A stretch of 45,360 nt of DNA from a virus. The number at the start of each line of letters is the position of its first letter. The first letter of the stretch is position 1. The translations under genes were made by a program, and so were the position numbers. The stretch spans positions 1 through 45,360 of IMG/VR virus record IMGVR_UViG_3300028400_000011; one strand, given 5' to 3'. Shown one piece after another: positions 1 to 45,360 of the stretch. The notes beneath the pieces were generated by a model. That model was not told the DNA's origin. It did not search any database and saw only the letters and a program-made list of their open reading frames with translations.

Positions 1-131
1 AAATGCCGAGGAAATTGTCTACAACAGAAAGACCAAACCTATCCCGGAGAGCCCGCCCGGAGCTATTGGCGGGAGTGGCGGAGAAACTGACATGCCATTC
101 TATTCAAAGGCAGCTCAGTGGGCTAAAGAGA
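1..131. repeat. Terminal repeat, left copy (genome closure)
   Basis: These bases recur at the right end of the window (45231-45360). The only difference is a homopolymer: AAA at 125-127 here, AA at 45355-45356 there. The repeat lies inside one continuous gene, as expected for an assembly overlap of a circular or terminally redundant genome rather than a mobile repeat. This copy keeps the gene frame open, so it is probably the correct one. Confidence 0.93.
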
Positions 132-478
132 CGACTGATCGCTTTACTGATTGGGTTGATAAGGCTCTATGGAAAGCTGGCATGAAGTCCAAAGGGGACA
201 AGGCCGCTATTCTTGAGGAAGCGGCCAGGCAAGCAGCAGAAAGAAACCCGGCACAGGCTGCTGCGGTATATGACGTTGCAACGCCCGAATTGGCGCAGAC
301 ACTTGGCTTTGGCTCTGCGCTTTTCCAGCCGCAGCAGGCTTACATCGCTCCAGAAATGATGGCTTTGCCAATTCTCTTGCAGCTTGCCCAGATTGCCGGC
401 AGAAGCAACGCTGCTGGAGAGGCCGCACGGTACAGCATTCTTGGCGGTATGCTTAATCCAGGCCCATTCACTTATTAG
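1..478 (+). CDS. Internal virion-like helical protein, C-terminal part (gene crosses the window ends)
   Basis: This is the 3' part of the gene that starts at 44788. Codons are in phase from base 2, and joining the ends gives one 306-residue protein, 178 residues before the internal Met at 92 and 128 from it. The part here is helical and Ala/Gln-rich (EEAARQAAERNPAQAAAVYD), with a hydrophobic stretch near PILLQLAQIAG and a Gly/Pro-rich end. There is no recognisable catalytic motif. It lies between other helical proteins and the 2832-aa giant, the usual place for podovirus ejection proteins. That role is inferred from position and composition. Met 92 lacks a good ribosome site, so a separate 128-aa protein is less likely. 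Confidence 0.75.
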   Translation, partial: NAEEIVYNRKTKPIPESPPGAIGGSGGETDMPFYSKAAQWAKETTDRFTDWVDKALWKAGMKSKGDKAAILEEAARQAAERNPAQAAAVYDVATPELAQTLGFGSALFQPQQAYIAPEMMALPILLQLAQIAGRSNAAGEAARYSILGGMLNPGPFTY

Positions 479-490
479 GCGGTGATAACA

Positions 491-895
491 ATGCTTACTT
501 ACTCAGGTATTCAAAGCCTTCCACCGGAACTCAAACAGGCTCTTGCAGCTTACCTCACGAATGATAAACTCAGGACGAAAGAGAACGCCATGAGGCTCAA
601 TCAGCTTCTCGCGCCTTATGGTGTTACTGTGCCTGAGCCAAATGATCATGCTGCCCTAAAGAAGCTTCTTGATATTGCAGTCTCAGCAGGACTCATTGCC
701 GCTGGTGTCGGCGGTGCGAAATGGGCTATTGGGGCTCTGCGTGGAAGCAAGGCCGTAGAGGCGGGTAGCGGTCTGCTTAATGCTGCCAAAGGAGCTGTTA
801 ACAAGAGTGGGCTACTGCGCAAAGTTTTCAAGGTGGGAACTGCGCCTGCTGCTGCCCAGAGTTTCGAGTGGATGAAAGGCACATATACACCATAG
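491..895 (+). CDS. Small putative internal virion protein with one hydrophobic segment
   Basis: This 134-residue protein starts at ATG 491, 12 bp after the previous stop, with GGTG just upstream; an in-frame GTG at 482 is an alternative. It has a helical N-terminal half, a hydrophobic Gly/Ala-rich stretch at about residues 55-80 (around AGLIAAGVGGAKWAIGAL) and a basic C-terminal third. A small protein with a membrane-active helix beside very large internal proteins recalls the ejection proteins of T7- and P22-like phages. I recognise no family, so the role is an inference from context. It ends 3 bp before the giant gene and is surely cotranscribed with it. Confidence 0.75.
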   Translation: MLTYSGIQSLPPELKQALAAYLTNDKLRTKENAMRLNQLLAPYGVTVPEPNDHAALKKLLDIAVSAGLIAAGVGGAKWAIGALRGSKAVEAGSGLLNAAKGAVNKSGLLRKVFKVGTAPAAAQSFEWMKGTYTP

Positions 896-898
896 AGC

Positions 899-3800
899 AT
901 GGATGATAAAGAGTTCATTGAACAGTATCTCAGGTATCAGAAATCGCCTGAGTCTTTCACTTCCTCTGAGGAGCTCAATCTCCAGCTTGAGGCAGCCAGG
1001 AGAGGTATTGATTTTCGCACCAGACTGCCCCTGGTTGACTATGTTCCTAAGCCAGAGGAACCATTCCTTCAGCGAGTACTCCACACCGCAGAGCAGGTCC
1101 CGTTAGGCTTTATCGAGGGCCTGACTACGATTCCCATCCCCGCCGTTGAGCCAAAAACAACGGGAGAAGGCATCTTCCGCTCTCTCGGCTCTGTTCTTGG
1201 TTTCGCCTTCCCGGGTAGTGCGCCACAGCGTGTCTTCAAAGCTGTAGACAAGGCCATCTCTGGCGCTATCCTGCATGGCGTGAAGGAAGGCCTCGAAGGC
1301 GTCGCGAAGATGTCTACAGCCAAGAAAATGCTGGTCAACATGGCCAAAGAGGGTACGGCTATGGCGGCCACCTCTGCAGTCATGTCATGGCCCTCTGTCT
1401 GGACGGATGGTGTGAAAGGGCTTGCTGAAGCCGCTGCCTGGGGTGGATTCTACGGAGCTGGATTCAATGCCCTTAGGCTGATCCCTGCTTTTGCTGGAGC
1501 TGGGAAGGCACGGGCTTTTGCACGTGTTCTTGCAAGCGGTATGTTCATGGCTTTGCCGTCCCACTTGAGGGGACAGACTACTCCTGAGCAGGTCTATCAC
1601 TTTCTGCTGGGTGCCTATTTCGGCATTCCGGGTAGGGGCCCGAAGGAGACAGTAAAGGAGTATGTGGACAGGGACCTCATCAGTGCTGTTCTCAGAGAGA
1701 TTGACAATACCCTGAGTGGGGACCCAGATGCCTGGAGAAAGGTCCTGACATATCTTGGCGACTATGTGGTTACTCCTCAGAACGCCGAGAATAAGCCCAT
1801 CTACATGCGAGATGGCCAGTACTACGTGCTGGATACCTTTCATCCCAGAAAAGAACAGATTGTCCTGAGAAGGCTTGAGAGACAGGAAAAGTCAGGCAAC
1901 CTGGATAAGTTCACACCGACCAAGGACGTCCTCACGCTTTCTCCCAATGTTCTTGAAGAAGGGCTCAGGCTTTTCTCACCAAGGAGCAGAATGGTGGAAT
2001 TGCCTGACGGGAAGAAGCTGGTTGTTGCCCACAGTTTCTACGGGAGTGGCATTGATAGCTTCAGACTGGTAGACAACATCAAGAAGATTCCGCCCGTTGG
2101 TACAGAGGCCGAGGAAATTCTCAAGTCTGCTCTGAAGCGTACAACCTTCAAGGTGAATGAGCTAAGAGGTCTTGCCAACCGGTGGATTGTACGTTATGGT
2201 GATGACTACTATCTGCCTATGACCACCAGGGAAACAGGCGTGCTGAAGCTCCATAAGGTTTACAATGCAGCACTCCCCGATGTGGAATGGGTTGTAGATA
2301 CATCGCCTAAGAATTCTATACCTGCTACGGAGCGATACTTCCCCGATAGTTTTGAGCCGGTGAGGGCTATTCAGGCCGATGTTTTTGAGCCCCTTGATCC
2401 AGAAAGTCTTGACGCGCTGAGAAGGAAGATTACTGCCGAGTTCACAGAGTCCCTCAGCCCGGACATCAAGGAAGACATGCCCGAAGAGTTCAGGGTGCCT
2501 GAGCTTTCTGATGAGCCCTACACACTGAGAGATCTTATTACGACGAAGAAAGAAGTCCTTGATACGGTCAAAAACAGGGAAGCAAGCCTTGAGCACTCTA
2601 CTGGGGATGCTTACTATGATTCGCTTCTTGCTTTCAATGCGCTGCCTTACAAGGTGAAGGAGACAATCTACGACCAGATTGCCAAGAGCAGAGATCCTGT
2701 AGACTTTGCTACCAGGGCTCTCAAGATTGTCTCAAGCTACAAGGAAATGCCAAGGGAGATCGCTGAAGCACCTGAGATCTTCAATCGCCTGTGGTTCAAT
2801 CGTCAGAAGGTGCCAATTAACAGCAAGAATATTGCTGAGTTCATCGTACCGCAGGTGCGTGACAGCAAGATCATGGGCAGAACCATGCGGCTTAGAGACG
2901 TGGATTGGCTTCTCGACTACGTGAGAACGCACAATCGGGATGTTGAGGATCGTGTCTTTCCGTCTTATCTTGATACGATCAAGGATGTGACCTTCAAGCG
3001 AGTTCGATATGCTGTCTACAATGGCGATCTTGTTGATATTGCCAATCTCAAGCCGGATGTTTGGAAAAGTATTGTTCGGTACATTGAGGCCAAGGACGGT
3101 TCTGTTCTGATTGGGGTCTATCCAAAATCTGGACGTTCAGAGGCTCTCTTTGCAAAGAAATTGAAACCTGATATTGCGAAGAAAGAGTTCGCTGAAATGC
3201 AAGAACAGTACAAACAAGCTACTGGACAAGATATGCCGGAACGCCTTGACCCGACTGAGATGGGCACGCTCCACAAGGCTCTGAAGGCGCTCTATGGCGA
3301 CAATTACCTTGCGACTGGCAGGTTCATTAAGTTCAGTGATATCACAAAGAGACTTCAGCTCCCCATTGCCAAGGGATTTAAGATCCCCGATTCTGTGCTG
3401 AAGCAGATCCCTGATGGAAATGGCATTGTCACCATTGATGGCAAGAAGTACCTTAGGTACAAGGTCAGGGCTGATGAGGGAACGGGAACAGACGGCCTGA
3501 CCTACACGGTTCGCCCTGTTCTTGACCTTTACAGTGACATCACTGGCTTTTCAAACAAAGCCGGTGCCCTTAAGACAGCGGTGATTTTCAGGGACAAGAA
3601 CGGTGCCTCAGTAACCATGCTGAAGCACTCCGAACAGCCTCCCCCACCTGATCTTGAGAAAGAGCTGATATCTCAGGGGTACGCTGGTATCGTTCATGAG
3701 TCCGTGCTCAAGGGTAACAAAGGGCTGAATGGCGAGAAGATGTACAAGGATGGGGATGATCTCCTTGTGCCAATGGATTCTGTGATTGTCATCAGCCAGA

Positions 3801-6800
3801 AGCATATTCCCCCAGAGCACAACTGGAAGGTGGTTATTCCAAAGCAGTTCAGCTATCTCACCAGTCTCACGTCAGACATCATGGAGAAGTCCGCTGAGAA
3901 GCAGTACGAGCGGATTCAGATTCTGAAACGTGAAGAGGCTGGCGTGAGGAATTTCCTTGAGACGGTTGGCTCTCAGATCGCTGCTGAGCACCTTGAGAGG
4001 GAATTGGCCGGTGGCCCAGAGGGAGCTGGAGAGGCCGTTCTGACACCAGGTCAGCTCATGACGGCCATGCTGGACGGTTCTTTCGGCATGCTGCTTGAGA
4101 ATAGAGCGGCCAACTACATTGAGGGTGTAGTCAGGACAAGAATCCAGACGGGTGCTTTTGGGGACAGGGTAGCTGGAGGGATTGCTGTTCTCGGTGATTA
4201 CGATACTCCATTTCTCAAGTACATGGAGAAGACGCTCGGCAAGAACTACATGCGAAAAGCCGAGAAAGCAGGCGTTCCCGAACTTACAAGAGTCTATCTG
4301 GACTATGGCTGGCGCGAGATGCCCCTTTCCGATGTTTTTGACCAGCTTGTTGTCGCAGAGTGGACAAAAGGCAAAATCAAATACAAGACGCTTGATAAAC
4401 TCGTGCCTGAGGAGTACAGGAAGAGAACCCTTGGCGACGCCTGGGATTATCTCAAGAACGCGGAGAAAAGGACGCAGAAGTTCTATACGATCAAGATCGT
4501 CGCAGGCAGAACTCCTATCTCGACTAGCTATGATGTTCAGGCTCTTGATCTTATCGGGTTCACTGGCGAGGAACATCCTGGTTACAGGGCTCACATCACT
4601 GATACCATGATGCATATCTTTGGCGGGGCTGACCTGGATATAGATACGGCGTTCTTGCTCCCTGGTGTAGGGAAGGAGGTTACTCTAAGAACAATTGAGA
4701 GAACTGGCGGCCTTGCTGAGGAATTGAGCAAGCTGGATAGCGTGCTCAACAGGACAGTCAAAGCAAGCAATGAGACAAACTGGTTTGATCTTGATAAGAG
4801 GGCCGAGAAGTCTCTTGGTGTGGCCAAAACTCAGAATATGATTGGCTTCATCATGAGCCACGCTAGAAATGTGAGAGCCTTTTGGCAAATCAAGCTGGGT
4901 AAGGGAAACAAGTCTATTGAGAAGCCTCTCGATCTTCTCACAGCAGTCTACCAGCGTGCCATTCTTGATAGCGGCAAGTATGGGGTAGCTATTGATCTTC
5001 AGACGGTGAGCAACGGCTATGCACTGCTTGCCGAAGCCATTGCGAAAGATCACAAGTTTGCGAAGCGCATAGCTACCATCATGAACAGGCCCAATGATGT
5101 AAGAGACATTTTGAGTGGTAAGATAAAGGGGAAGATCTTCAAGGATGCTATGGAGATCACCGGCATTGATGACCCGAAGAACGCTTTCAAGAACTACGGC
5201 GATCTTTTCTATGCACTCAGGGATCTCCACAATGTCTGGCTGAGCAGGAATTACTACGCAGGCAGGAAGTACAATCTGTTTGAAATCGCGACGGCCATTG
5301 ATCGTTTTTCTACAGCCCTAAAGGAAGCTGGCTACACCAAAGAGCAGTTGCCTGGCTATCTCAGGGTAATCTCCAATCCGAAGTATGCTGTGACGGGTCT
5401 CGATACATTTGACTTTGTGACGCCTTACAAATACAGGCGCATGGTAGAGACTGGAGCTATTTTCCCCGAGATGCAGGATGTGCCCAAAGGCACTGGCATG
5501 CTAGCATCTCTCGACAAGCTTGGGCTTCTTAATGAGGCCGAGATTGTCAAGATCGCGATGGAGATGAGCAAGCAAGAGAACATCGCCAGTGTCATCAGGC
5601 AGATCACTAACGCCAAGAGGAGTGGCATCCTCGCAAGAGATATCATGGAGAAGCCCGGCGGGAAGCTCAGCCAAGATTGGGCTAGAACAGGCTACTCCAT
5701 GCACAGAGCTGTACTCAGGCTCCTCGAAAACCGCTATCCCTATCGTTCTCTCAGGGATCTCATGAGAGATGCGGTTGGCGAGGGCTGGGGGGAAGCTTTT
5801 GACTATGACAACTACGTAGAGAGATACATCCAAGAACACCAGGGTGAGAAAACGAAAGTGCCGCTTGAGTACCTTGCAGACCGGTCCTATCTCACCTGGT
5901 TTACTCGTGCCCTTGAGAAAGTGACTACAGATCCGGATATCAGTCTACCCAAGAGGGCAAAACAGAAGCTTGCTGGAGATATTGTCTACACCTTCTACTC
6001 CAATGCCAGGAACGATCTGAGAGCTACGATCTCGGACTATCTCAAAGGGATGGCCTTCTGGCGGTTAAGAAACTCGTCTGACTTTGTTGGTGTTGATGAG
6101 AAGCTTGCTCATGAGATTATCGCCAGGAGTGTGCTTATTAAACGTTTCGAGCACAAACTTAAATTAGCCAACAGAACACGCGATGAGGCGGCCATCAAAG
6201 AAAACCTGAACAAGATGAGGCGCGAGGAAGGCAAACTGTGGAATCTCGTCAAAGACGATGAGAAGCTGAGACAGTTTGCCTCTGCTGTCATGTTCAGTCC
6301 TGTCAGGCCTGATTTTGAGAAGCTGCCTGCCTCTCTCAAGCAGATCATGCAGCCCATTCTCAGGAGCTGGAGAAGGGCTGAAATCAGCGATTCTACCAGG
6401 TGGAGAGAGGACCCCTGGTATGATCCTGCTGTTTTTGCCAAGGTTCTTTCTGGCTATCGCTATTACGCCGATCTTCTCATGGATCCTACCTGGTCTCAGG
6501 CAGAACACCTTGAGGCTATGAGGGCGGTCAAGGATACGCTCAGTGACATCAATGCACCTCTACAGGATGGTTATGTTTTTGTTATTAACCCAGAACCAGG
6601 GGATCTGGCAGGCAAATGGATGGAACCAGGCCTCAGAAAAGAGTGGAGAAGGTTTGTAGCTGAAATCAAGGAGAAAGGCCCATACTATCTCGGCTACCTT
6701 GACTGGGCAGCGAAGCTTTACGTAGGCAGGCCTCTTACAGATCTCTCCACTCCTGAGCTTCGGTTCTTCATGAGCAAGGTACGAGATGAAGTAAGTGGGA

Positions 6801-9397
6801 AAAAGATGGGCCCGCTCAATAAGTACCTGCTCAAACATGGCATGTTATGGCTCTTCCCCGAATACGTGGATAAGTACGTCCGGGGCCAGATTCCAGTTAA
6901 GCAATCCTCGCAGGTCATCGCAAGAACTATGGTGTCGCCCTACGGCGGGCCTGTTATGAGACTCCAGCAGTTCGGCGCCAATGCTGCTTTCGCCAAGGAT
7001 GAACTCATTGCTCGTCATGAAAAAGAACTCACGCCGCTTGTGGATGAGCTTACAAATCCACGTTACAGCGACCAGAACCCATTCCGTCCTGAAGATATTG
7101 AGCATCTGACAAAAGTAGCCTCTGCTCTGTACGAAGCTGGATTCACACTTGAGAACAAAGCTGGCAGGTGGATACTGAGCAACCCGGACCTGGACCACAT
7201 CAGGAGACTGGCCGAGATTGACGGGGATGTATTCCTGCTTGAGAATGCCTCCGCTGCTCAGCACGTTGTTCTTGAGATGCTCAAGAACGCGAAGGAGAAG
7301 AGGACGCAAGATCGGCTTGCCTACATGGCGAAGCTCATGGACTTCTACAGGAAGTTCAGTAAGTTCGCTCAAAGCAGGTACGAGGGAGAACCGGGCAAGT
7401 ACAATGGAGAGTCCCAGTACAGGTATCTCTTTGCCAAAGAGTTCTACCGTTTCTTCAACCTGAGGCGACAACATGATATGCTGCCTGAGCACTGGAAGAA
7501 TCTCAAGCTCTCGCCACCCAACAGGAAGAACTATGAGCCTGCTATCAGAAAGAACTACATTGGCCGCATGTGGCGTTCAGACAGAGAGTTTGTTGAGGCA
7601 CTTAAGGCGGCAAAGCTCAAGTACGAGCAACTGATCAAAGCGGGTGGAGAGGCTGTTAGCTTCACTCACGGAAGAGACAAAGTATACCTGCCAATCCCAA
7701 AAGAGGTTATTGCTACGTTCGAGGAGAGAGTCGCTCTTATTGATCAGGCTCTGAAGAGGATTGAAGCTGGCGAGAATATCTCTACCATCAGAGCTGCTCT
7801 CCAGGGTGAGGTTATCGAGGAAGACTTTCCCGACGATCTCATCAGACCAAGAACGTCGAGCTACATGCTGCCTCGCATCCTGTTCTTGCCTGGTTATGAT
7901 GCTTCTCCAAAGAGACTGATGGAATACCTGAATCACCAGGCAAGGCGCTACTCTCAGAACAGGTTTGGCTACGAGGCGCTGAAGTTCTACAACAACATCA
8001 TTCCTCAGTTTGCCAAGATGAGGATTGTCGGCTTTGACAACAAGGAACATCCTGAGATCAAGAGCCTTGTGGATCGCTATATGCTAAGTCAGCTCTATCA
8101 GATCACCGGCAGGGCCGCCCCTGAGTGGGTGCTTGGGAAATGGTCTGACGAGGCCATTGCAGCACGGCTTACCAAGATTCAGAACAAACTGGCAAGTTTC
8201 TTCGGACTTAAGCAGAAGGAAATCACGCCATACGATGTAGCCCGTTGGTCTATCCTTGAGGGTCAGTACCAGCTTCTCAGTAAGCTTGCTGTGGCTCGCT
8301 TTGTTGTTGCCAACGTCTTTGGCGGCACAGTTTTAACTTACCAGCGCTCGCCGGGAATCAAAGCCGTCATGGACGGCTACAAAGCTTACATCAACAACGA
8401 ATGGCCAAGAGAGTTTGTCAAGCGCTTTCCTTTCCTCGGTACAGAGGAAATGAGACCTCATGAGGTCGTGGTTCATGGCGGTATTGCCCAGGAGTTCTAC
8501 TCTTCGGAACTGCGGGGCAAAGTCATGGAAAGCACGCCTCATTTCAGACGTCTTGTTGCCGAGTTCAGGAAAGCTATGGAGATGAGCCCCCATGACAAAA
8601 AGCTTGGGAAGGTTTTTGAATCTCTCAAGAACGCCTCTGAGGAAGCTGGGGTCAATGATGCCATCTCCTGGTTTGGAACCATGTTCATCAGAAAACCTGA
8701 GAAGATGCTCAGGTACGGTTCCTTCCTGACTGGCTACATGCAAGCCATGAAGATGGGATTCAGCCACGAGGAGGCGCTTGCCTTCGCAAGGCGGTTTGTC
8801 GAGAGGAGCCAGTTTTTCTACGATGCTCCATACAGAATGCCCATTGCCAACTCTGCCCTTGGCAGAATCTTCTTCCGGTTCAGATTATGGACGCTCCAGA
8901 ACCTGAGGACACAGAAAGAATACCTGCAAGACGCTGCCAGAATTGGCTTTAAGAAAGGCACAGCTCCATTCGAGCGATTTGAGAGAGCCTTTCTCTCCAA
9001 CCTGTTCATGGTTGCTATGGCAAGCGCCTTTCCTTACACTGTCTTTGATGCAGCGCTGCCAGCACCCTTTAGCTGGGTACAGGATCTCTCACTCATGTTC
9101 TTCGGCAATGACGAGGATAGAAAGAGAGCTTTCTGGGGTACCTATGGACTCAGTGAGATTACACCGCCTATTCTTGGGCTGCCGCTTGATGTAATGATGA
9201 GCTTCGTGAATCATGACTTTGACAAGATTATGAACTACACCATCTGGACTGTTTTCCCATTTGGGAGATTGGCAAGGGACATCAGCAAGTCCATTGGGCA
9301 GCCTCACATGCTCATGGACAGGATGACAGGGCTTCCATTCCACAGAATGAGCTGGTACCGGAAAGACGTGATTGGAGCATACTGGCCGAGCCTATGA
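899..9397 (+). CDS. Giant internal virion (ejection) protein, 2832 aa
   Basis: One uninterrupted reading frame takes up about 19% of the genome. The N-terminal ~220 residues hold several hydrophobic, Gly/Ala-rich helices (strongest about 150-220). The long middle is charged and mostly helical with a few beta-rich islands. Near the C-terminus another hydrophobic stretch (about 2697-2726) is followed by a Pro/Phe-rich tail. Giant late proteins after the tail genes are known in podoviruses as ejected internal proteins or polyvalent multi-domain proteins; N4 packages a ~3500-aa RNA polymerase. I looked for single-subunit RNA polymerase motifs and found none convincing, and saw no clear peptidase, transglycosylase or ADP-ribosyltransferase motif. 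The gene is certain; the ejection role is inference from size, composition and position. Confidence 0.9.
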   Translation: MDDKEFIEQYLRYQKSPESFTSSEELNLQLEAARRGIDFRTRLPLVDYVPKPEEPFLQRVLHTAEQVPLGFIEGLTTIPIPAVEPKTTGEGIFRSLGSVLGFAFPGSAPQRVFKAVDKAISGAILHGVKEGLEGVAKMSTAKKMLVNMAKEGTAMAATSAVMSWPSVWTDGVKGLAEAAAWGGFYGAGFNALRLIPAFAGAGKARAFARVLASGMFMALPSHLRGQTTPEQVYHFLLGAYFGIPGRGPKETVKEYVDRDLISAVLREIDNTLSGDPDAWRKVLTYLGDYVVTPQNAENKPIYMRDGQYYVLDTFHPRKEQIVLRRLERQEKSGNLDKFTPTKDVLTLSPNVLEEGLRLFSPRSRMVELPDGKKLVVAHSFYGSGIDSFRLVDNIKKIPPVGTEAEEILKSALKRTTFKVNELRGLANRWIVRYGDDYYLPMTTRETGVLKLHKVYNAALPDVEWVVDTSPKNSIPATERYFPDSFEPVRAIQADVFEPLDPESLDALRRKITAEFTESLSPDIKEDMPEEFRVPELSDEPYTLRDLITTKKEVLDTVKNREASLEHSTGDAYYDSLLAFNALPYKVKETIYDQIAKSRDPVDFATRALKIVSSYKEMPREIAEAPEIFNRLWFNRQKVPINSKNIAEFIVPQVRDSKIMGRTMRLRDVDWLLDYVRTHNRDVEDRVFPSYLDTIKDVTFKRVRYAVYNGDLVDIANLKPDVWKSIVRYIEAKDGSVLIGVYPKSGRSEALFAKKLKPDIAKKEFAEMQEQYKQATGQDMPERLDPTEMGTLHKALKALYGDNYLATGRFIKFSDITKRLQLPIAKGFKIPDSVLKQIPDGNGIVTIDGKKYLRYKVRADEGTGTDGLTYTVRPVLDLYSDITGFSNKAGALKTAVIFRDKNGASVTMLKHSEQPPPPDLEKELISQGYAGIVHESVLKGNKGLNGEKMYKDGDDLLVPMDSVIVISQKHIPPEHNWKVVIPKQFSYLTSLTSDIMEKSAEKQYERIQILKREEAGVRNFLETVGSQIAAEHLERELAGGPEGAGEAVLTPGQLMTAMLDGSFGMLLENRAANYIEGVVRTRIQTGAFGDRVAGGIAVLGDYDTPFLKYMEKTLGKNYMRKAEKAGVPELTRVYLDYGWREMPLSDVFDQLVVAEWTKGKIKYKTLDKLVPEEYRKRTLGDAWDYLKNAEKRTQKFYTIKIVAGRTPISTSYDVQALDLIGFTGEEHPGYRAHITDTMMHIFGGADLDIDTAFLLPGVGKEVTLRTIERTGGLAEELSKLDSVLNRTVKASNETNWFDLDKRAEKSLGVAKTQNMIGFIMSHARNVRAFWQIKLGKGNKSIEKPLDLLTAVYQRAILDSGKYGVAIDLQTVSNGYALLAEAIAKDHKFAKRIATIMNRPNDVRDILSGKIKGKIFKDAMEITGIDDPKNAFKNYGDLFYALRDLHNVWLSRNYYAGRKYNLFEIATAIDRFSTALKEAGYTKEQLPGYLRVISNPKYAVTGLDTFDFVTPYKYRRMVETGAIFPEMQDVPKGTGMLASLDKLGLLNEAEIVKIAMEMSKQENIASVIRQITNAKRSGILARDIMEKPGGKLSQDWARTGYSMHRAVLRLLENRYPYRSLRDLMRDAVGEGWGEAFDYDNYVERYIQEHQGEKTKVPLEYLADRSYLTWFTRALEKVTTDPDISLPKRAKQKLAGDIVYTFYSNARNDLRATISDYLKGMAFWRLRNSSDFVGVDEKLAHEIIARSVLIKRFEHKLKLANRTRDEAAIKENLNKMRREEGKLWNLVKDDEKLRQFASAVMFSPVRPDFEKLPASLKQIMQPILRSWRRAEISDSTRWREDPWYDPAVFAKVLSGYRYYADLLMDPTWSQAEHLEAMRAVKDTLSDINAPLQDGYVFVINPEPGDLAGKWMEPGLRKEWRRFVAEIKEKGPYYLGYLDWAAKLYVGRPLTDLSTPELRFFMSKVRDEVSGKKMGPLNKYLLKHGMLWLFPEYVDKYVRGQIPVKQSSQVIARTMVSPYGGPVMRLQQFGANAAFAKDELIARHEKELTPLVDELTNPRYSDQNPFRPEDIEHLTKVASALYEAGFTLENKAGRWILSNPDLDHIRRLAEIDGDVFLLENASAAQHVVLEMLKNAKEKRTQDRLAYMAKLMDFYRKFSKFAQSRYEGEPGKYNGESQYRYLFAKEFYRFFNLRRQHDMLPEHWKNLKLSPPNRKNYEPAIRKNYIGRMWRSDREFVEALKAAKLKYEQLIKAGGEAVSFTHGRDKVYLPIPKEVIATFEERVALIDQALKRIEAGENISTIRAALQGEVIEEDFPDDLIRPRTSSYMLPRILFLPGYDASPKRLMEYLNHQARRYSQNRFGYEALKFYNNIIPQFAKMRIVGFDNKEHPEIKSLVDRYMLSQLYQITGRAAPEWVLGKWSDEAIAARLTKIQNKLASFFGLKQKEITPYDVARWSILEGQYQLLSKLAVARFVVANVFGGTVLTYQRSPGIKAVMDGYKAYINNEWPREFVKRFPFLGTEEMRPHEVVVHGGIAQEFYSSELRGKVMESTPHFRRLVAEFRKAMEMSPHDKKLGKVFESLKNASEEAGVNDAISWFGTMFIRKPEKMLRYGSFLTGYMQAMKMGFSHEEALAFARRFVERSQFFYDAPYRMPIANSALGRIFFRFRLWTLQNLRTQKEYLQDAARIGFKKGTAPFERFERAFLSNLFMVAMASAFPYTVFDAALPAPFSWVQDLSLMFFGNDEDRKRAFWGTYGLSEITPPILGLPLDVMMSFVNHDFDKIMNYTIWTVFPFGRLARDISKSIGQPHMLMDRMTGLPFHRMSWYRKDVIGAYWPSL

Positions 9398-10358: not shown

Positions 10359-10601
10359 TTATACGCTTTCGTTCTCTCCCGGTTCCTCAATTTTTCCTAC
10401 CTGTTCTTGTTCGAGCTTGTCGGGATTAGTCTGATCCACGATCACCTCTACGGGGCCAAGGTATCTCACAGCTTCTGCTGTGACTGCATTCTTCTTCTCG
10501 ACAAAATTGGCAACGTAATCGAATCTTGGAGATCCTGTGGCCACGTAGAAGCTGAGACCTTCTCCTTCGACTTCAAACAGGTTCATCAGTTTGTATTTCA
10601 T
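10359..10601 (-). CDS. Small hypothetical protein (last leftward gene)
   Basis: This 80-residue acidic protein has a good ribosome site (GGAGGAATC before the ATG), and its ATG overlaps the stop of the gene before it (ATGA). The N-terminal ~60 residues look beta-rich, with alternating hydrophobics around YVATGSPRFDYVANFV. The last ~20 are charged and probably disordered. I recognise no family. It is the promoter-distal gene of the leftward block, directly before the terminator. Confidence 0.75.
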   Translation of the reverse strand: MKYKLMNLFEVEGEGLSFYVATGSPRFDYVANFVEKKNAVTAEAVRYLGPVEVIVDQTNPDKLEQEQVGKIEEPGENESV

Positions 10602-23479: not shown

Positions 23480-23483
23480 TTAC

Positions 23484-37761: not shown

Positions 37762-37763
37762 GA

Positions 37764-37997
37764 ATGAATGGAAATGGCAAGAACTGGATCATAGCTCTCA
37801 TCATGCTGATTGTGGCCTCTCTCACATTCCTTGCCGGGACTTACACTGATCTTGGCAAGAACAAGCAGCGGATTGCCACAAATGAGAGGGACATTAGAGC
37901 TATACAGGAAGCGCTTAGAGATAACACAAGGATTCTTCTCGATATCAAGGATAGGCTTGCGAGAATTGAAACTAAGCTGGAAGATCAGGGGAAGTGA
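37764..37997 (+). CDS. Membrane-anchored coiled-coil protein (spanin-like)
   Basis: This 77-residue protein starts at ATG 37764 (GGAG upstream). One N-terminal membrane helix (about 9-27, IIALIMLIVASLTFLAGTY) is followed by a long charged coiled coil (NKQRIATNERDIRAIQEALR). This is the layout of inner-membrane spanins and some holin partners. The lysis neighbours (holin-like, endolysin) support this, but no outer-membrane lipoprotein partner is seen, so the call is tentative. Confidence 0.6.
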   Translation: MNGNGKNWIIALIMLIVASLTFLAGTYTDLGKNKQRIATNERDIRAIQEALRDNTRILLDIKDRLARIETKLEDQGK

Positions 37998-38260: not shown

Positions 38261-38456
38261 GACAGCTACTGGCCTTTTACTTGTTTTTGCTGGCTATGCG
38301 GTGAAAGCAAAGGTTCAGCCGATTGGGGAGGCGCTTATCTATGTGGGCACGTTTCTTGCTGGACTCGGCGGGGCCCACAAGGCTATGAAAAAAGTCAAGG
38401 GTATGGACCCGTTCGAGGGCGAGAAGGAGATTGCAAGAGCAGTTGGGTTGAAGTAG
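38226..38456 (+). CDS. Holin-like small membrane protein
   Basis: This 76-residue protein has two hydrophobic helices (about 14-30, TATGLLLVFAGYAVKAK, and about 36-52, ALIYVGTFLAGLGGAH), a short positively charged N-terminus and a charged tail. This is the size and topology of class II holins, placed just before the endolysin. Lesion formation would let the lysin reach the wall. The evidence is topology and location only. Confidence 0.65.
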   Translation: MKLLEKLKKVPKTATGLLLVFAGYAVKAKVQPIGEALIYVGTFLAGLGGAHKAMKKVKGMDPFEGEKEIARAVGLK

Positions 38457-38858: not shown

Positions 38859-41230
38859 TGTGGAAGCGCCTGCTTACATACCTCGTACTTTTCATTCCTG
38901 TTTTTGCCCATGCCGGGACCGATAGGGTCCATGACTGGTGGGGACTTTCCAAGCGACAGATCCTGCAAAAGATCAAAGGTGTTCATGGTACTGATGTAGA
39001 TGATCCATTTTACGCTCTTTTCCAATGGGCTCAGGATATCGATGAGAGTTATCCTGGCACTGGGATCTATTATGTAAGCAACTTCAATAGTATCCAGGCA
39101 GCCATTGATAGTGCTCATGCTCATGGTGGTGGCAAGGTTGTTCTGGAATGTGATACCGTTACTGTCACCAGTTCGATTGTGCTCTACAGTAACATCTGGC
39201 TAAGTGGGGTTGGGCCCTGCAGTGTGATTAAGACAGAGAAGTCAAGCACGTTTGACTTGTCAGCCATCAAGATAGATGGCGGTTCGAACAATGTATTTGT
39301 GTCTGATCTTAAAATTGAGCCAGATACAACTTCTGTGTATGCCACAGAGTATGATCATGCTGTAAGAGTCGACACGGCTTCCAATGTAAGGATTTTTCGC
39401 GTTGTTGTACCGCAATGTGTTGGAGATGGTGTCTATATAAGAGACTCAGACTACATCTCTGTAACGAACTGCTACTTCTCCGGGCAAGACATTTCTTCCC
39501 CATATGATCCACCATGTCCTAGAAATGGCATCAGTGTTGTTGGCGGCAATGACATTGTAATCTATGGCAACACATTCTACGGTGCTTTTGATCCGGGCGC
39601 CATTGATATCGAGCCAAATGCTGGACAGATTGTCAAGAGGGTCATTGTAGCCAATAACACGATCAAGGGCATTGATCTAACGCATCTCTCAAATGGCGTT
39701 AGTATCTATGCAAATGCTGATTCTGCTAATTCGCTTGTACGGGATGTGCTCATCTATGGTAATGTGATGAGCAGAGTCTATGGCAGGGCTATAAACATCT
39801 ACGATTATTATTCGAACGCGTACAATGTATCTGTTGTAGGCAACAGCATTGACAGTTGTGGCCTTGGTGCTTCCCCGTCTTCTGCTGTTTTTGTTAGGGG
39901 TGCTCCAAAGGCCTTGAACTTGTCAGGCAACACAATAACAAACGGGACAAGAGGCCCTGCGATTTACATCTACGAGACGAATTGGAAAGCCATTGATGGC
40001 GCGTTGGTATCTGACAATGTACTGGACTCTGTGCGATACGGAGTCATGATTTACAGGGATGCAACAAGGCCATCTCCAAGACTTATCAGGGTCCATGACA
40101 ATACAATAAGAAACACTGTTTATGATGGCATTAATGTTCAGAATACAGATGGGCCGATCTTCCTGTACGGTAACACAATAACAGGAGCGGGGAGATATGG
40201 TATAAGCGTGTCAGATGCTGACTCTGTTTATTCGTATGGTAATGCTGTATTCTATTCTTCATCGGAAGATTACAGGCCTGCTGGAACCATAGGCGATAAT
40301 ATTGTTTTTAACTACAATCTCGGTAACGGCGGAACAAGATACTCTAACACTGTTGCCGATATGAAGGCCCAGCAGGACACGATGAAGCTCTCGTTGAGGG
40401 GGCAACACGATAGTAAGGCATTCGCGATTACATCTGACGACAGTGATAGCTTGTTGTTTGTCGTGAACGGCTATGGAGTCGTCAAGACATACAACAGGGC
40501 TGGTGTGAGTTCGTTTGCCGGGCGCTTAACGCAGTGGTGGTTTGCGGATGTTCACGCACCACAGATGGAATGGTATGTGAACAAAGATACGCTCATTCTG
40601 TATGGCAACGACACGTATGGATGGGCTGGCTGGCCATATGTGAAGTCAGGATTCTTCTATGGTAGGTTTGGCCTTGGTGTTTATCCAGGCATAAAGATCT
40701 ACCTCGATGATGAGTGGGATGCCACATCTTCGACGACAAAAGATAGCTACATCTGGTACAACACATCTACGAGTCAGGTTGAAATCGTTGATGATGGCGT
40801 GACTGTATTCCCAACATCTAGTAGTATTAGTGGGACTGCACTGGATCAGACGCTGAGCCTTGGGTCTTACGTCCCATATCTTGGTACTACTAACGGCGTG
40901 TACTTGCAAATCCCTGCTGGGGGCACAGCCGATGTTAGATTGCCCGCGGTTAATAGAGTACACAATACAACTGTGAAGCTGGACACTGTTTGGGTAAGAG
41001 TAACATACAACGGTATTGCGACTGGGTCTGTAGACAGCATCAATGTTTGGTCTATCAGCCCGGCTGCTGGTGCTACATGGCTTGGCCATGCTCTTAGTGT
41101 TGGTGAGGGTACAGTTGCCATTGATACTGGCGACTATGCCATGCCAGAAAACTACACATTGTCTATTAGAGCTTATGACTCAGACACAAACTGGATGTTG
41201 AGAAGTGCGAGACTAAAATACATCTGGTGA
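38858..41230 (+). CDS. Right-handed beta-helix spike protein with signal peptide
   Basis: This 790-residue protein starts with a signal peptide (RLLTYLVLFIPVFAHA, cut before GTDR). Residues about 70-100 carry the pectate-lyase-3 entry (FNSIQAAIDSAHAHGGGKVV). Then follow many repeating short strands with N-x-I/V, G-N-x-I turns (about 120-490) typical of right-handed parallel beta-helices in spikes that bind or cleave polysaccharide. The C-terminal ~250 residues are beta-rich with a jelly-roll feel. A secreted spike is odd because virions assemble in the cytoplasm; it may be an exported glycan-degrading enzyme or may be assembled in an unusual way. Confidence 0.82.
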   Translation: MWKRLLTYLVLFIPVFAHAGTDRVHDWWGLSKRQILQKIKGVHGTDVDDPFYALFQWAQDIDESYPGTGIYYVSNFNSIQAAIDSAHAHGGGKVVLECDTVTVTSSIVLYSNIWLSGVGPCSVIKTEKSSTFDLSAIKIDGGSNNVFVSDLKIEPDTTSVYATEYDHAVRVDTASNVRIFRVVVPQCVGDGVYIRDSDYISVTNCYFSGQDISSPYDPPCPRNGISVVGGNDIVIYGNTFYGAFDPGAIDIEPNAGQIVKRVIVANNTIKGIDLTHLSNGVSIYANADSANSLVRDVLIYGNVMSRVYGRAINIYDYYSNAYNVSVVGNSIDSCGLGASPSSAVFVRGAPKALNLSGNTITNGTRGPAIYIYETNWKAIDGALVSDNVLDSVRYGVMIYRDATRPSPRLIRVHDNTIRNTVYDGINVQNTDGPIFLYGNTITGAGRYGISVSDADSVYSYGNAVFYSSSEDYRPAGTIGDNIVFNYNLGNGGTRYSNTVADMKAQQDTMKLSLRGQHDSKAFAITSDDSDSLLFVVNGYGVVKTYNRAGVSSFAGRLTQWWFADVHAPQMEWYVNKDTLILYGNDTYGWAGWPYVKSGFFYGRFGLGVYPGIKIYLDDEWDATSSTTKDSYIWYNTSTSQVEIVDDGVTVFPTSSSISGTALDQTLSLGSYVPYLGTTNGVYLQIPAGGTADVRLPAVNRVHNTTVKLDTVWVRVTYNGIATGSVDSINVWSISPAAGATWLGHALSVGEGTVAIDTGDYAMPENYTLSIRAYDSDTNWMLRSARLKYIW

Positions 41231-41478: not shown

Positions 41479-43402
41479 CATAAAACATCCGGCAAGAGGG
41501 CTGATGAGCAACATCAACCCTGAGATTGCGCAGGCTGACTTTGCTGTCAGGCTACAGCAGCTTGTTCCGGATGGGGGTACGCTCAAGCGTTATGAGGAGC
41601 TTGCCCCTCTGAACAACTCTATTGCTGCGCCAGTGAACCTCGCTGGGGCTTTCTTTGACAGGGATGACAACTGGATCCCCTGGGCGGTCTACGGATCCAC
41701 ACTCTACCGTGGTTCGTGGGCTTCTTCTACCAGGACAATAACATGGACAAACATGGGAAGTATCGGCATTAGCCCGACTTCTTACTTGGCTTTCAATGGC
41801 GCTGTGCGTTTCTCAGATGGTACGTACAGCAAGATTCTGATCAACATCCCCGCCGTTACACGATTCGGCGGGCAAGCTCTCACGAGTGGCTGGAAGATTC
41901 TCGACACCAAGCTTTCATCCCCTGTTGTTGAAAATGCTTCTCTACCGCCTTCTGGTGGGATTGCATTTCAGGTTTCTGAGATCACTGATTCTGACACCTA
42001 TTTCCAGGAAGGTGACAAAGTAGAGTTTGGGTTCACTTACCATCGTACTGATGGGGTGAGCTATCTAAGCAGATCGCTTGCCACGACAACCATTAGTGCG
42101 AATGGGAAAAGCTTGTCTCTTAATCTCCATGCCGATGGGAACGTCGATGATAGAGTCGTCTGGATTGGTGTCTGGATCAAGGTGAATGACGGGGTATGGC
42201 AACTGTGGAGGAAGATCCATCGGTCGGATAATGTAGTTGATGACAGTAACTCGGCAAGAGCCTGGAGCTGGGATACTATCAATAACAAGGGCGATATCAA
42301 CGGCATGGTTATTGACGGTTCCCCTCTCACGGATGAATACACCGCTCTTACTGGATACTCAGATGATGACATTAATACCTACGATGCTACTGGCATTCTC
42401 GTTGGCACTGAGGTCTATCCATATGTTCCTTGGGGCGTTGCAATTCCTGCTGGTGGAAGGGCAATCTATGCTGGTGTTACAGTAGATGGCGAGCTTAGGA
42501 ATGACCGGATCTACGTGAGCTATGCCAACCAACCCGACATTGTTCCGGAAACAAACTACTTTGACATCGGCATTGACGATGGTGATTCCATTGTTGCGCT
42601 TGCTTATGTCCCAGGAAGATTGTACGTTTTTAAGACAAACAACATCTATGTCATCAGCGCAGCTTCTTACGATCCAGTTGGCTGGCGGGTTGTAAGTCGG
42701 ATCAAGGGCCTTGGAGTTGATGACTACCGCAAGATCATCACGAGGGCTGATCAGGTCTTTTTCGCCAACAGTTCCGGTGTGTTTTTGCTCTATGGAGATC
42801 AGCTCAAACGTATTGATCTTGCCTGGGCGGACAAGTACGAGCAGTGGGTTCCTGATCCTGTTCTTGGAATCTACGAAGAGAATGGCGATCTTCTTGTTGG
42901 GCAGAGTGCTGGCTATAGTTACTTCTTTGCCATTGCACTCACATCAAGAACAGGCAGAGAGCCATTAAGTGCAGTCCAGCTTTTTGGGCCGGGCGGGACT
43001 ATTGATGACGCGTATTGGCTCCCAGGCCCCGATGGGAATGCCTACTTCATGTTTATCAACAGTAGTGCTGGCGACTCTACGGTCTACTCTTTTTCATCTG
43101 GTGCGACGAAGAGCATTGAATGGGAAACACCTTCTCTGGATCTTGGCAGGGCTTATGTTAGGGGAGTAAGGCTTGTTGGTAGTAAGCTCGGCGGTCTTGA
43201 CCTGAAAGTTAGACTTGATGGGGTGATCAATGCGAGTATGTCAACAACGCTTGATTCCTCGCTTGACAAAACAGCTTTTGTGAGGTTTGCAGGGAAGGGA
43301 AGAAGAGTTGCAATTTACTTGAGCGGATCTGCAGATCAGGATTTTGAACTGGAGAAAGCTGAGTTATGGATCGAGCCACTGCCGAGAGAATTGCCCGATT
43401 AG
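41465..43402 (+). CDS. Tail nozzle/hub protein (beta-propeller-like)
   Basis: This 645-residue protein starts at GTG 41465 behind GAGG. The second half has the hallmarks of podovirus nozzle or stabilisation proteins (T7 gp12-type): DRIYVSYANQPDIVPETNYF, GDSIVALAYVPGRLYVFK, NNIYVIS and QVFFANSSGVFLLYGDQLKR, repeated blade-like strands that form a propeller at the tail tip. No signal peptide is present, unlike the genes before it. It would be bound by the second adaptor and carry the spike. Confidence 0.78.
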   Translation: MQILDIKHPARGLMSNINPEIAQADFAVRLQQLVPDGGTLKRYEELAPLNNSIAAPVNLAGAFFDRDDNWIPWAVYGSTLYRGSWASSTRTITWTNMGSIGISPTSYLAFNGAVRFSDGTYSKILINIPAVTRFGGQALTSGWKILDTKLSSPVVENASLPPSGGIAFQVSEITDSDTYFQEGDKVEFGFTYHRTDGVSYLSRSLATTTISANGKSLSLNLHADGNVDDRVVWIGVWIKVNDGVWQLWRKIHRSDNVVDDSNSARAWSWDTINNKGDINGMVIDGSPLTDEYTALTGYSDDDINTYDATGILVGTEVYPYVPWGVAIPAGGRAIYAGVTVDGELRNDRIYVSYANQPDIVPETNYFDIGIDDGDSIVALAYVPGRLYVFKTNNIYVISAASYDPVGWRVVSRIKGLGVDDYRKIITRADQVFFANSSGVFLLYGDQLKRIDLAWADKYEQWVPDPVLGIYEENGDLLVGQSAGYSYFFAIALTSRTGREPLSAVQLFGPGGTIDDAYWLPGPDGNAYFMFINSSAGDSTVYSFSSGATKSIEWETPSLDLGRAYVRGVRLVGSKLGGLDLKVRLDGVINASMSTTLDSSLDKTAFVRFAGKGRRVAIYLSGSADQDFELEKAELWIEPLPRELPD

Positions 43403-43602: not shown

Positions 43603-44081
43603 TGCGACCGGCTGGACCATACAGAAGCAGTGAGGGGTACTTTGGCGAGTCTCTCTACAATACAAACCTTGCCAAATTGCAGCTCCAGAAGCTTCTTGCC
43701 GATGTGAGAGCGAGGATGGCAAGGGATGCTTTCTGGGATGCCTTCAGGCGCAGGCAAAAACAGTTGGCAGTCCAGATGGGCCTTCAGAGAGAGATGTTGC
43801 CCAATGTGCCGAGTTGGGGCGTTGTTCTTGGTTCTACTCTTCTCGGTAGCTTGCCCAGCGCTGCGGCTAATTACTGGGGCAGTCAGCAGATTATGCAGGC
43901 AAGGAACCAGTACCAGGATCTTCTCAGGGCCCTTAATAGTGGGCCATTGGAGTTCGGCGCTCCGCCTGAGTTCAACCCATATGACCGGACGCTCTATGGC
44001 ATGAGGCTGCCAAGCCCGTTCAGTTATGGTACGCCTCAGTACGGTTGGGGCCATGGCTATTCTCCATTTGCTCCGAGGTGA
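43602..44081 (+). CDS. Putative internal virion protein
   Basis: This 159-residue protein's ATG overlaps the previous stop (TAATG). A basic helix region (RARMARDAFWDAFRRRQKQL) is followed by a weakly hydrophobic Gly/Ser segment (GVVLGSTLLGSLPSAAANYW) and a Pro/Gly/Tyr-rich tail. It is the first of five consecutive proteins of this kind that end with the giant, which suggests an ejection apparatus. Inference from context. Confidence 0.7.
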   Translation: MRPAGPYRSSEGYFGESLYNTNLAKLQLQKLLADVRARMARDAFWDAFRRRQKQLAVQMGLQREMLPNVPSWGVVLGSTLLGSLPSAAANYWGSQQIMQARNQYQDLLRALNSGPLEFGAPPEFNPYDRTLYGMRLPSPFSYGTPQYGWGHGYSPFAPR

Positions 44082-44086
44082 TGTAG

Positions 44087-44782
44087 ATGGGTATTCCTTA
44101 CAGTGATTGGGTGCGTCGCTACATGGAGGCGCAGGGCTGGGGGCAGCCTGGTACACAGCCACGAGATACCTTCGAGAATTCTCAGTCGGGGCCTGGACCT
44201 GAGTCTGTTGGAGCGCCCGGTACAGAAATGCCTCAGCCCAATGAGCCCGATCCGAATGTTATGGGAATGCAACCAGCAGTTTCGTCCCCAGATGTAGAAC
44301 TGGCAAAGCTGAGTGGCGAACTGGGTCAGTATGCTCAGTATGGCCTTGGTGGAGACTGGCTGAGACGTGCTTTTTACACCGCAACAGCGCCCATGTCTCG
44401 TCAGGCGCTTGAGAGAGAACGTGCCGTAGGAGAGCAGCAAGCTCTTGCTGGATTTCAGGGCAGTGGATTTCATCAGCGGTTACTTGACTCTATTGAGCAC
44501 CAGAGACGGCTTGCATTACAGAGGGCCTGGGCTGGGATCAGGTCTCAGAATGAGGCAGTGAAACAGTCTGCGGCGAGAGCCTTGAGTGATCTTAATGAGT
44601 TCTACAATCGTCTGAGGGCTCAGGGTCAGTTTGATGATCAGGCATTCCGTGATAGAATTGAGTTGATCAAGGAAAGGTGGAGAAGGGAGCAGGATGCGGC
44701 TACGAAGCAGTTCTGGAGTAACCTGCTGAGATCTTCTCTTGAGCTTGGCGGACGCATGCTTCCGTTCTTGATGGGAGGTTGA
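44087..44782 (+). CDS. Putative internal virion protein, helical
   Basis: This 231-residue protein has a disordered, Pro/Gly/Gln-rich N-terminal ~70 residues, then long amphipathic helices (LERERAVGEQQALAG; LALQRAWAGIRSQNEAVKQ) and a C-terminal hydrophobic patch (LGGRMLPFLMGG). This resembles ejection proteins that can form helical tubes. It is 5 bp after the previous stop. No enzymatic motif is seen. Confidence 0.7.
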   Translation: MGIPYSDWVRRYMEAQGWGQPGTQPRDTFENSQSGPGPESVGAPGTEMPQPNEPDPNVMGMQPAVSSPDVELAKLSGELGQYAQYGLGGDWLRRAFYTATAPMSRQALERERAVGEQQALAGFQGSGFHQRLLDSIEHQRRLALQRAWAGIRSQNEAVKQSAARALSDLNEFYNRLRAQGQFDDQAFRDRIELIKERWRREQDAATKQFWSNLLRSSLELGGRMLPFLMGG

Positions 44783-44787
44783 TTTTT

Positions 44788-45360
44788 ATGGCATACGATC
44801 CTTTACTTTCGCACACACTTGCACAGCTTGGCGTTGGCCTGAGTCACGCTGGTGAAGCTATTGCCAATGCCATTACTGCCAAGGGCGAGTATCAAACCAG
44901 GGGGCTTGAGGCGCAACTTGCGGCTAACTTGCAGAGAGAAGCAATGGGCTTACAGAAGTATTTGGCCCAGCTTGATGATGCTCGCAAGCGCAAGGAGATT
45001 GACAATCGCAAAGCTGCCTTTGATGCGTACATGGCGTTCAGAGAAAAGTATGCCAAAGAGGCGATGAAACTACTCCAGGCCATGAACAGTGGGGATAATG
45101 CGCAAGCACAGCTTAGCGGTACGATTATGAACGTCCTGTCGAATGCGATCAAGAAGATGGAAGATGCCAGGGATCCAAAGACTGCATTTGAACGACTGAA
45201 GGCTATTGCTGACTACGCTGCATCGAAAGAAAATGCCGAGGAAATTGTCTACAACAGAAAGACCAAACCTATCCCGGAGAGCCCGCCCGGAGCTATTGGC
45301 GGGAGTGGCGGAGAAACTGACATGCCATTCTATTCAAAGGCAGCTCAGTGGGCTAAGAGA
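44788..45360 (+). CDS. Internal virion-like protein, N-terminal part (continues at window start)
   Basis: This gene starts at ATG 44788, preceded by GGGAGG. Its coding frame continues without a break into base 2 of the window, giving 306 residues in all. The N-terminal part has hydrophobic Gly/Ala helices (LLSHTLAQLGVGLSHAGEAI), long Gln/Ala/Lys helices and a Pro/Gly linker (PIPESPPGAIGGSGGE) just at the junction. The last copy of the overlap lacks one A at 45355-45356, which would shift the frame; the left copy keeps it open. The ejection role is inferred from context. Confidence 0.75.
   Translation, partial: MAYDPLLSHTLAQLGVGLSHAGEAIANAITAKGEYQTRGLEAQLAANLQREAMGLQKYLAQLDDARKRKEIDNRKAAFDAYMAFREKYAKEAMKLLQAMNSGDNAQAQLSGTIMNVLSNAIKKMEDARDPKTAFERLKAIADYAASKENAEEIVYNRKTKPIPESPPGAIGGSGGETDMPFYSKAAQWAKR
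45231..45360. repeat. Terminal repeat, right copy
   Basis: Matches 1-131 base for base except for one missing A at 45355-45356. It marks genome closure. The homopolymer length difference also gives a hint of the error type to expect elsewhere in this assembly. Confidence 0.93.

Follow-up and report, generated by a model that had tools for sequence, protein, structure and literature searches.

TGTT[T/C]TTG, an over-represented genome-wide word and candidate recognition signal in a taxonomically isolated podovirus-like phage

Genome organization

The window analyzed here, a whole stretch of 45,360 nt, is the genome of a podovirus-like phage, complete and with a circular map. Nucleotides 1–126 were identical to nucleotides 45231–45356 and one open reading frame ran over the joint, which indicated circularity. 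The phage is taxonomically isolated, with a best terminase large subunit (TerL) identity to its relatives of ~33%. The following genes and features were annotated.

12158..13033, -, Sak4-like single-strand annealing/recombination ATPase (PF13479, 1.9e-24; phrog_124, 8.8e-25)
18054..19667, -, DnaB/KaiC-type replicative helicase, possibly a primase-helicase (phrog_243, 2.9e-16; Pfam DnaB_C)
22604..23483, no strand, divergent spacer between minus-strand early and plus-strand late genes, with five TGTTTTTG copies
25921..27429, +, terminase large subunit (phrog_38, 2e-65)
27922..29889, +, P22-like portal protein (PF16510, 2.8e-76)

The minimum of the GC skew (~23,011) fell inside the divergent spacer, a putative origin or control region. 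No RecBCD inhibitor was recognized in the genes scanned against Pfam and PHROGs, a scan that a novel type of inhibitor could escape.

Definition and distribution of the word

A first-pass annotation of the sequence had singled out GTTTTTG/CAAAAAC as a word occurring about 45 times, and we counted 46 copies (26 plus, 20 minus), including every example position that it had listed. The one-base variants were as rare as described (CTTTTTG 11, GTTTTTA 8, ATTTTTG 5, GTTTTTC 5), and the roughly 38 copies said to extend to a longer word proved to be 39 copies of TGTTTTTG (22 plus, 17 minus). Under a third-order Markov model, 10.0 copies of GTTTTTG and 3.5 copies of TGTTTTTG were expected. TGTTTTTG was the top over-represented 8-mer among those tested, with an observed/expected ratio of ~15 under a trinucleotide model and a density of 0.86 per kb.

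The over-representation of GTTTTTG therefore stood, but its definition as the core did not: copies without a preceding T behaved as background, and the core is TGTT[T/C]TTG. The full motif consists of ~9 pyrimidine-rich bases, which are part of the motif, followed by this core; it spans ~17 nt, is asymmetric and has sharp edges. An EM motif search run without an anchor ended up following codon periodicity instead. The core occurred 66 times across the genome on both strands, approximately one copy per 0.7 kb, with 54 of the 66 copies inside genes, and the density of the extended motif was 0.31/kb. The flanks of the 66 copies were unrelated, with between-copy identity at the random level, and the motif at each site arose independently. 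CAGCTG was absent from the phage genome, whereas the TGTT[T/C]TTG word was enriched. The copies with T at the fifth base were located as follows.

1152..1159, -, TGTTTTTG
2380..2387, +, TGTTTTTG
2569..2576, -, TGTTTTTG
4333..4340, +, TGTTTTTG
6430..6437, +, TGTTTTTG
6574..6581, +, TGTTTTTG
10150..10157, -, TGTTTTTG, spacer
11647..11654, +, TGTTTTTG
13013..13020, +, TGTTTTTG
15026..15033, -, TGTTTTTG
19119..19126, +, TGTTTTTG
19163..19170, -, TGTTTTTG
20343..20350, -, TGTTTTTG
20604..20611, -, TGTTTTTG, within small uncalled gene
20727..20734, +, TGTTTTTG; CAAAAACA in early-gene leader, directly upstream of Shine-Dalgarno
21318..21325, -, TGTTTTTG, within small uncalled gene
21475..21482, +, TGTTTTTG; CAAAAACA directly upstream of early-gene Shine-Dalgarno
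22066..22073, +, TGTTTTTG; CAAAAACA directly upstream of early-gene Shine-Dalgarno
22698..22705, -, TGTTTTTG, divergent spacer
22711..22718, -, TGTTTTTG, divergent spacer
22830..22837, -, TGTTTTTG, divergent spacer
22905..22912, +, TGTTTTTG, divergent spacer
23050..23057, -, TGTTTTTG, divergent spacer
24487..24494, +, TGTTTTTG
24728..24735, +, TGTTTTTG
24860..24867, -, TGTTTTTG
25810..25817, +, TGTTTTTG
26448..26455, -, TGTTTTTG
26976..26983, +, TGTTTTTG
29124..29131, +, TGTTTTTG
29700..29707, -, TGTTTTTG
31336..31343, -, TGTTTTTG
37072..37079, +, TGTTTTTG
37661..37668, +, TGTTTTTG
38282..38289, +, TGTTTTTG
38899..38906, +, TGTTTTTG
39886..39893, +, TGTTTTTG
42780..42787, +, TGTTTTTG
43755..43762, -, TGTTTTTG

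The copies with C at the fifth base were located as follows.

1192..1199, +, TGTTCTTG
1525..1532, +, TGTTCTTG
1948..1955, +, TGTTCTTG
3200..3207, -, TGTTCTTG
3517..3524, +, TGTTCTTG
5831..5838, -, TGTTCTTG
7267..7274, +, TGTTCTTG
7881..7888, +, TGTTCTTG
9492..9499, +, TGTTCTTG
10402..10409, +, TGTTCTTG
12121..12128, -, TGTTCTTG
13380..13387, -, TGTTCTTG
13877..13884, +, TGTTCTTG
17732..17739, +, TGTTCTTG
17785..17792, -, TGTTCTTG
18293..18300, -, TGTTCTTG
23753..23760, +, TGTTCTTG
24319..24326, +, TGTTCTTG
30158..30165, -, TGTTCTTG
30718..30725, +, TGTTCTTG
32491..32498, +, TGTTCTTG
33902..33909, +, TGTTCTTG
34161..34168, +, TGTTCTTG
37856..37863, -, TGTTCTTG
42859..42866, +, TGTTCTTG
42945..42952, -, TGTTCTTG
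43823..43830, +, TGTTCTTG

T was the preferred fifth base in spacers, and C was used within genes. As the first-pass annotation had claimed, non-coding DNA was denser in the word: 12 copies of TGTTTTTG lay in 5.3 kb of spacer against 0.7–0.8 expected, although two or three of these spacers are probably small uncalled genes. The claimed mixing of sense and antisense copies also held, with an excess in both senses; plus and minus copies of TGTTYTTG numbered 30 and 13 in the late regions and 9 and 9 in the early region. Positional periodicity was absent (gap CV 0.97 for TGTTYTTG), and regular spacing, for which TGTTNTTG gave a weak signal (p = 0.03) and TGTTYTTG none, was dropped. TGTTTTTG was clustered (scan p = 0.001), and the interval from helicase to terminase, 14% of the genome, held 15 of its 39 copies, a concentration to which spacer DNA contributes and in a region picked after reading PMC3784561.

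Selection on codons and proteins

Many sense copies come from Val-Phe and Val-Leu codons, and in-frame use of GTT TTT G and GTT CTT G accounts for the excess of the word in the sense orientation. Codon choice alone was nevertheless insufficient, as had been proposed, and on this point two codon-aware nulls and a control with matched relatives agreed. With a recoding null that kept protein, codon usage and dinucleotides, TGTTNTTG occurred 71 times in genes against 18.9 ± 3.9 expected (z = 13); in the relatives, the null was well calibrated (66 vs 58.5). Val-Phe was encoded as GTT TTT in 18 of 30 cases before G and in 3 of 30 before other bases (p = 9e-5), and Val-Leu as GTT CTT in 21 of 40 and 7 of 55 cases, respectively (p = 4e-5). 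The proteome was affected as well: VF[VADEG] occurred 30 times against 13.6 expected, so that Val-Phe preceding a codon starting with G was in 2.1-fold excess, and Val-Phe ahead of other codons showed no excess. Neither the excess of the word nor the codon and proteome effects were found in 81 distantly related phage contigs (251,380 amino acids).

Codon or dipeptide bias was ruled out by the codon-aware nulls, the Val-Phe context test and the control with relatives. The excess in spacers also stands against composition or codon bias, and the random level of flank identity against duplication or an assembly artefact; that the word is a product of normal base composition, of bias in codons or proteins, of duplicated sequence or of faulty assembly is extremely improbable. 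Selection, or else a copying process with a bias, favors an asymmetric double-stranded DNA signal in the phage genome, and the preference for this signal is strong enough to change codon choice and even protein sequence.

Relatives, candidate hosts and literature

No close relative of the phage was found in the collections searched, and the distant ones (TerL ≤ ~33%) had no excess of the word, so it was rejected as a general property of related phages. Over 12 kb, TGTTTTTG was missing from the contig closest by terminase (L123, 33%). Among ~660 cellular genomes and in several pattern scans, nothing of comparable density turned up, whether host or other phage. The genomes comprised two miscellaneous sets (18 and 20), 151 from the phylum to which a Synergistaceae MAG belongs, 80 from an Aminicenantes class, 199 from the phylum of a Clostridia MAG and 200 from the phylum of Pseudoalteromonas. 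The best density of TGTTTTTG in this sample, outside which the host may lie, was 0.33/kb compared with 0.86/kb in the phage, and no sampled genome carried the word at ~1/kb, nor did any among the matches listed by a clustered-pattern scan. In the densest genomes, which were re-tested, the extended motif reached at most ~0.04/kb compared with 0.31/kb in the phage. Loci with clustered copies (L206, L232, L047, L324 and others) had no genome-wide excess and were set aside as local repeats or chance, and no host was found through prophage homology. We found no paper in which GTTTTTG, TGTTTTTG or CAAAAACA is discussed as a word of phages or bacteria; the word itself appears to be new, and its kind is already known.

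Possible readers of the word

Among the roles suggested in the first-pass annotation, a Chi-like or uptake word of the host and a binding site are still candidates. To our knowledge, genome-wide recognition words have been described in few cases (Chi, uptake sequences, segregation signals, stoperators), and selection that alters proteins is seen in only a few of these. The phage may encode or hijack an undescribed genome-wide recognition system for its ~66 Y9-TGTT[T/C]TTG sites in both orientations, and selection for the sites may have reshaped its codons and amino acids, a proposal that we regard as tentative. The sequence of the word is cleanly defined, its negative control is calibrated, and one phage genome lacking close relatives was enough to recognize it. 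Once the host is known, TGTT[T/C]TTG can be tested directly as the Chi of an undescribed bacterial nuclease, and the same test would address the alternative of a phage protein that organizes its own genome through ~66 asymmetric sites.

The reader of the signal would be a machine that is directed by sequence and travels along the entire genome or scans it, most likely a host end-processing nuclease of the RecBCD/AddAB/AdnAB type with the word as its Chi-like word; this is our leading mechanism, plausible if somewhat short of even odds. Frequent copies in both orientations could halt the degradation of linear or concatemeric phage DNA, whichever end it starts from, and load a recombinase in cooperation with the phage Sak4-type annealing protein. 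In lambdoid phages, Chi (GCTGGTGG) is over-represented and placed between the replication genes and the terminase, and the class that over-represents it is Rec+Inh- (Bobay et al. 2013, PMC3784561). The present word is likewise an asymmetric T/G-rich octamer, scattered in both orientations beyond composition. Its T form peaks, with a contribution from spacer content, between the replication genes or putative origin and the terminase, as a Chi-like role would explain. The GC-skew minimum at 23.0 kb also favors the Chi-like reading, as does a Sak4-like protein together with no recognized RecBCD inhibitor, the combination of the Rec+Inh- class. The partial dependence of the cluster on spacer DNA and the choice of its region after reading the paper weaken this reading, as does the lack of a sampled genome dense in the extended motif. 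E. coli Chi is not known to have degeneracy at its fifth base or a pyrimidine tract 5' on the T/G strand, and both these features and the lack of orientation bias count against it. The word is also ~4 times denser (0.86 vs 0.2 per kb, the latter being the density of Chi in E. coli itself) and its observed/expected ratio of ~15 is well above the lambdoid medians of 2.5–4.8 (PMC3784561).

Close behind the Chi-like reading ranks the possibility that the motif is bound by a protein which the phage encodes and which acts genome-wide, such as a stoperator-type repressor or a nucleoid, packaging or replication protein. The sharp-edged, asymmetric motif of ~17 nt resembles a protein footprint, and a comparable density was absent from the distant relatives and all sampled cellular genomes. 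The copies are densest in the early control region, with five in the 22.6–23.5 kb divergent spacer and one directly upstream of the Shine-Dalgarno of each of three early genes. L5-type repressors of mycobacteriophages bind asymmetric 13-mers at more than 20 places throughout the genome of the phage (PMC9283540), and the stoperators of cluster A mycobacteriophages share with the present motif its asymmetry, its dozens of copies and its density in the early control region. However, stoperators occupy promoters and short intergenic spaces and are aligned with transcription (PMC9283540), whereas the copies here are mostly intragenic and point both ways. No candidate binding protein was recognized among the phage genes scanned, and no L5-type two-domain immunity repressor was recognized by Pfam or PHROGs in the genes scanned, which included part of the small genes.

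Less likely, and in our view improbable, is that the phage has adapted to a word of another DNA-scanning host system, such as an uptake sequence or a nucleoid or segregation signal. Uptake-type words are expected on both strands, genome-wide, independently arisen and with an amino-acid footprint, all of which fit. USS and DUS of Pasteurellaceae and Neisseriaceae resemble the word in their frequency (about one per kb), strands, independent origins, core with flanking tract and proteome footprint, but the present word is of another sequence and lies in a phage, which when infecting has no need for uptake; no competent host was identified and no sampled genome was as dense. An RNA-level element, in which CAAAAACA and its purine tract act in mRNA as a leader or ribosome-binding enhancer, or through the complement, would explain the CAAAAACA copies upstream of the three early Shine-Dalgarno sequences, but it is very unlikely given that the word and its complement are both in excess in the mRNA sense and that the copies are mostly inside genes. 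A restriction or modification target is a poor fit, since such a word would be expected to be depleted in the phage rather than enriched. A replication or packaging signal had also been suggested as a role, but a single signal of this type does not suit 66 genome-wide copies.

Over-representation of the word

GTTTTTG had been proposed in the first-pass annotation to be over-represented genome-wide, and a third-order Markov model bore this out (46 copies vs 10.0 expected). TGTTTTTG, the T-form 8-mer containing it, was the top over-represented 8-mer among those tested (39 vs 3.5, same model). The strongest pattern in a survey of gapped words was TGTTNTTG (87 vs 16.4), with T at the variable fifth base in 39 copies, C in 27, G in 12 and A in 9. 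A second over-represented word, TGTAGACA/TGTCTACA, had 13 copies vs 2.0 under the Markov model, and 11 vs 3.2 within genes under a codon-dinucleotide null.

Codon bias as the source of the word was ruled out by two codon-aware shuffles, upholding the earlier view that codon choice could not explain it alone. GTTTTTG occurred 33 times within genes vs 9.3 after synonymous shuffling, with both sense (20 vs 5.5) and antisense copies (13 vs 3.8) in excess. Under a stricter synonymous shuffle also preserving dinucleotides, TGTTNTTG occurred 71 times in genes vs 18.9 ± 3.9, with a null maximum of 32 in 200 shuffles. Spacers were enriched for TGTTTTTG (12 vs 0.7–0.8 expected) and scarcely for the C-form TGTTCTTG (1 vs 0.6), suggesting that the T-form is preferred wherever DNA is otherwise unconstrained; the C-form may be the version fitting Val-Leu and Lys-Asn contexts.

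The word is favoured strongly enough in the phage genome to affect its proteins. Before a G-starting codon, GTT TTT encoded Val-Phe in 18 of 30 cases (3 of 30 before other codons; p = 9e-5) and GTT CTT encoded Val-Leu in 21 of 40 (7 of 55 before other codons; p = 4e-5). The tripeptide VF[VADEG] was in excess (30 vs 13.6), VL[VADEG] more weakly so (40 vs 28.7), and VF and VL preceding other residues showed no excess in the phage proteome. The comparison with related phages suggested earlier was made in 81 distant relatives (251,380 residues), which showed no excess: both tripeptides had ratios of 1.02–1.08, context-dependent codon choice gave p of 0.6–0.9, and the pooled codon-null ratio for TGTTTTTG was 1.13, vs 30 copies against 5.3 in the phage itself. 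Since the relatives' ratios were close to 1, the codon null is calibrated, making the effect specific to this phage.

The motif extends beyond its 8-mer core. At the 66 TGTT[T/C]TTG sites, positions -9 to -1 were 59–76% pyrimidine, down to 50% at -11, and the downstream bases carried no signal. Around TGTTTTTG, the pyrimidine fraction of the tract exceeded background at sense (0.70 vs 0.46), antisense (0.67 vs 0.54) and spacer (0.73 vs 0.50) copies, and [ACG]GTTTTTG copies had no tract. At matched Val-[Phe/Leu]-G codons, the upstream pyrimidine fraction was 0.69 with the word vs 0.45 without. Spread of copies by duplication was ruled out because their flanks were no more alike than random DNA.

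Genome organization and placement of the word

The entire 45,360-base virus record was analysed. It appears to be a circular map of the complete genome (~45.2 kb), given an exact 126-base terminal repeat (1–126 = 45231–45356) and an ORF from 44779 that runs over the joint of the record ends. Genes are our own calls, with some small genes missed.

Main features of the phage genome
23.5–45.4 kb, onward through 0–10.1 kb, +: late gene block
899–9397, +: 2,832-residue protein, ~19% of the genome, no match in PHROGs or Pfam
25921–27429, +: terminase (late block)
27922–29889, +: P22-like portal (late block)
31136–32416, +: likely major head protein (late block)
late block, +: beta-helix tail protein
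10.3–22.6 kb, -: early gene block
11181–11558, -: Lar-type restriction-alleviation domain protein (PF14354, 2e-12)
12158–13033, -: Sak4-like protein (early block)
18054–19667, -: DnaB-type helicase (early block)
~20580–20706 and 21260–21462, -: two small genes missed by a simple gene caller, each with a good Shine-Dalgarno sequence and one TGTTTTTG

The word occupies both strands; sense copies predominate in the late block (30:13), and the early block is balanced (9:9). Copies of TGTTTTTG were clustered (scan p = 0.001), and the helicase–terminase interval, 14% of the genome, held 15 of the 39; this cluster is only suggestive, as the interval is rich in spacer DNA and was picked after reading the Chi paper (PMC3784561). 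The divergent spacer at 22604–23483 contains five TGTTTTTG copies and the GC-skew minimum, and CAAAAACA lies directly 5' of the Shine-Dalgarno sequence in three early genes.

By sequence comparison, the phage appears to have no near relative in the collections searched, which may omit near-identical records. Megablast of its first 25 kb against 50,697 phage records gave zero matches, portal matches were all below 60% identity, and terminase relatives in IMG/VR reached at most 33%.

Candidate readers of the word

From this single genome, we infer that something reads an asymmetric DNA word genome-wide. The best analogue is perhaps a Chi-type word, whose reader would be a host end-processing nuclease. 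Chi is over-represented in lambdoid phages that lack RecBCD inhibitors, and in those lacking a recombinase the excess surpasses that of the E. coli core genome; Chi sites in lambdoid phages lie between the replication genes and terminase (PMC3784561). In the phage here, the genes include one for a Sak4-like protein and none recognised as an inhibitor. The chief rival reading, a somewhat more doubtful one, is a DNA-binding protein encoded by the phage, to which the 17-nt footprint and the motif density in the early region point. L5 stoperators, which are repressor sites (PMC9283540), resemble the word in asymmetry and copy number but differ in two defining features, location and orientation.

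The sampled genomes also hint at a phage protein, as none carried the word at such density. The earlier suggestion to check candidate hosts was pursued in ~660 whole genomes spanning only a minority of phyla, where the word reached at most 0.33 per kb vs 0.86 in the phage, and the extended pattern up to ~0.04 per kb in the densest vs 0.31. A GTDB contig scan for the clustered, mixed-orientation pattern yielded, among the matches listed, 38 source genomes that were counted whole, none comparable; a host search by homology found no terminase relative on any genome contig. Two further IMG/VR pattern scans revealed no second phage with the property among the matches listed. That some other host scanning system reads the word is unlikely.

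Restriction sites and codon usage

The PvuII hexamer CAGCTG had 0 copies in the window vs 15.6 expected from sub-words and 39.7 under the coding null (both strands). CTCGAG (1 vs 10.9) and CTAG (33 vs 91) were scarce across the whole window. This looks like restriction-site avoidance, and the Lar-type protein fits restriction pressure on the phage. Arg codons were mostly AGG/AGA at 48.6% G+C, and ATA and TTA were rare; the closest codon usage among the loci compared was that of L001, a distant terminase relative (r = 0.865).
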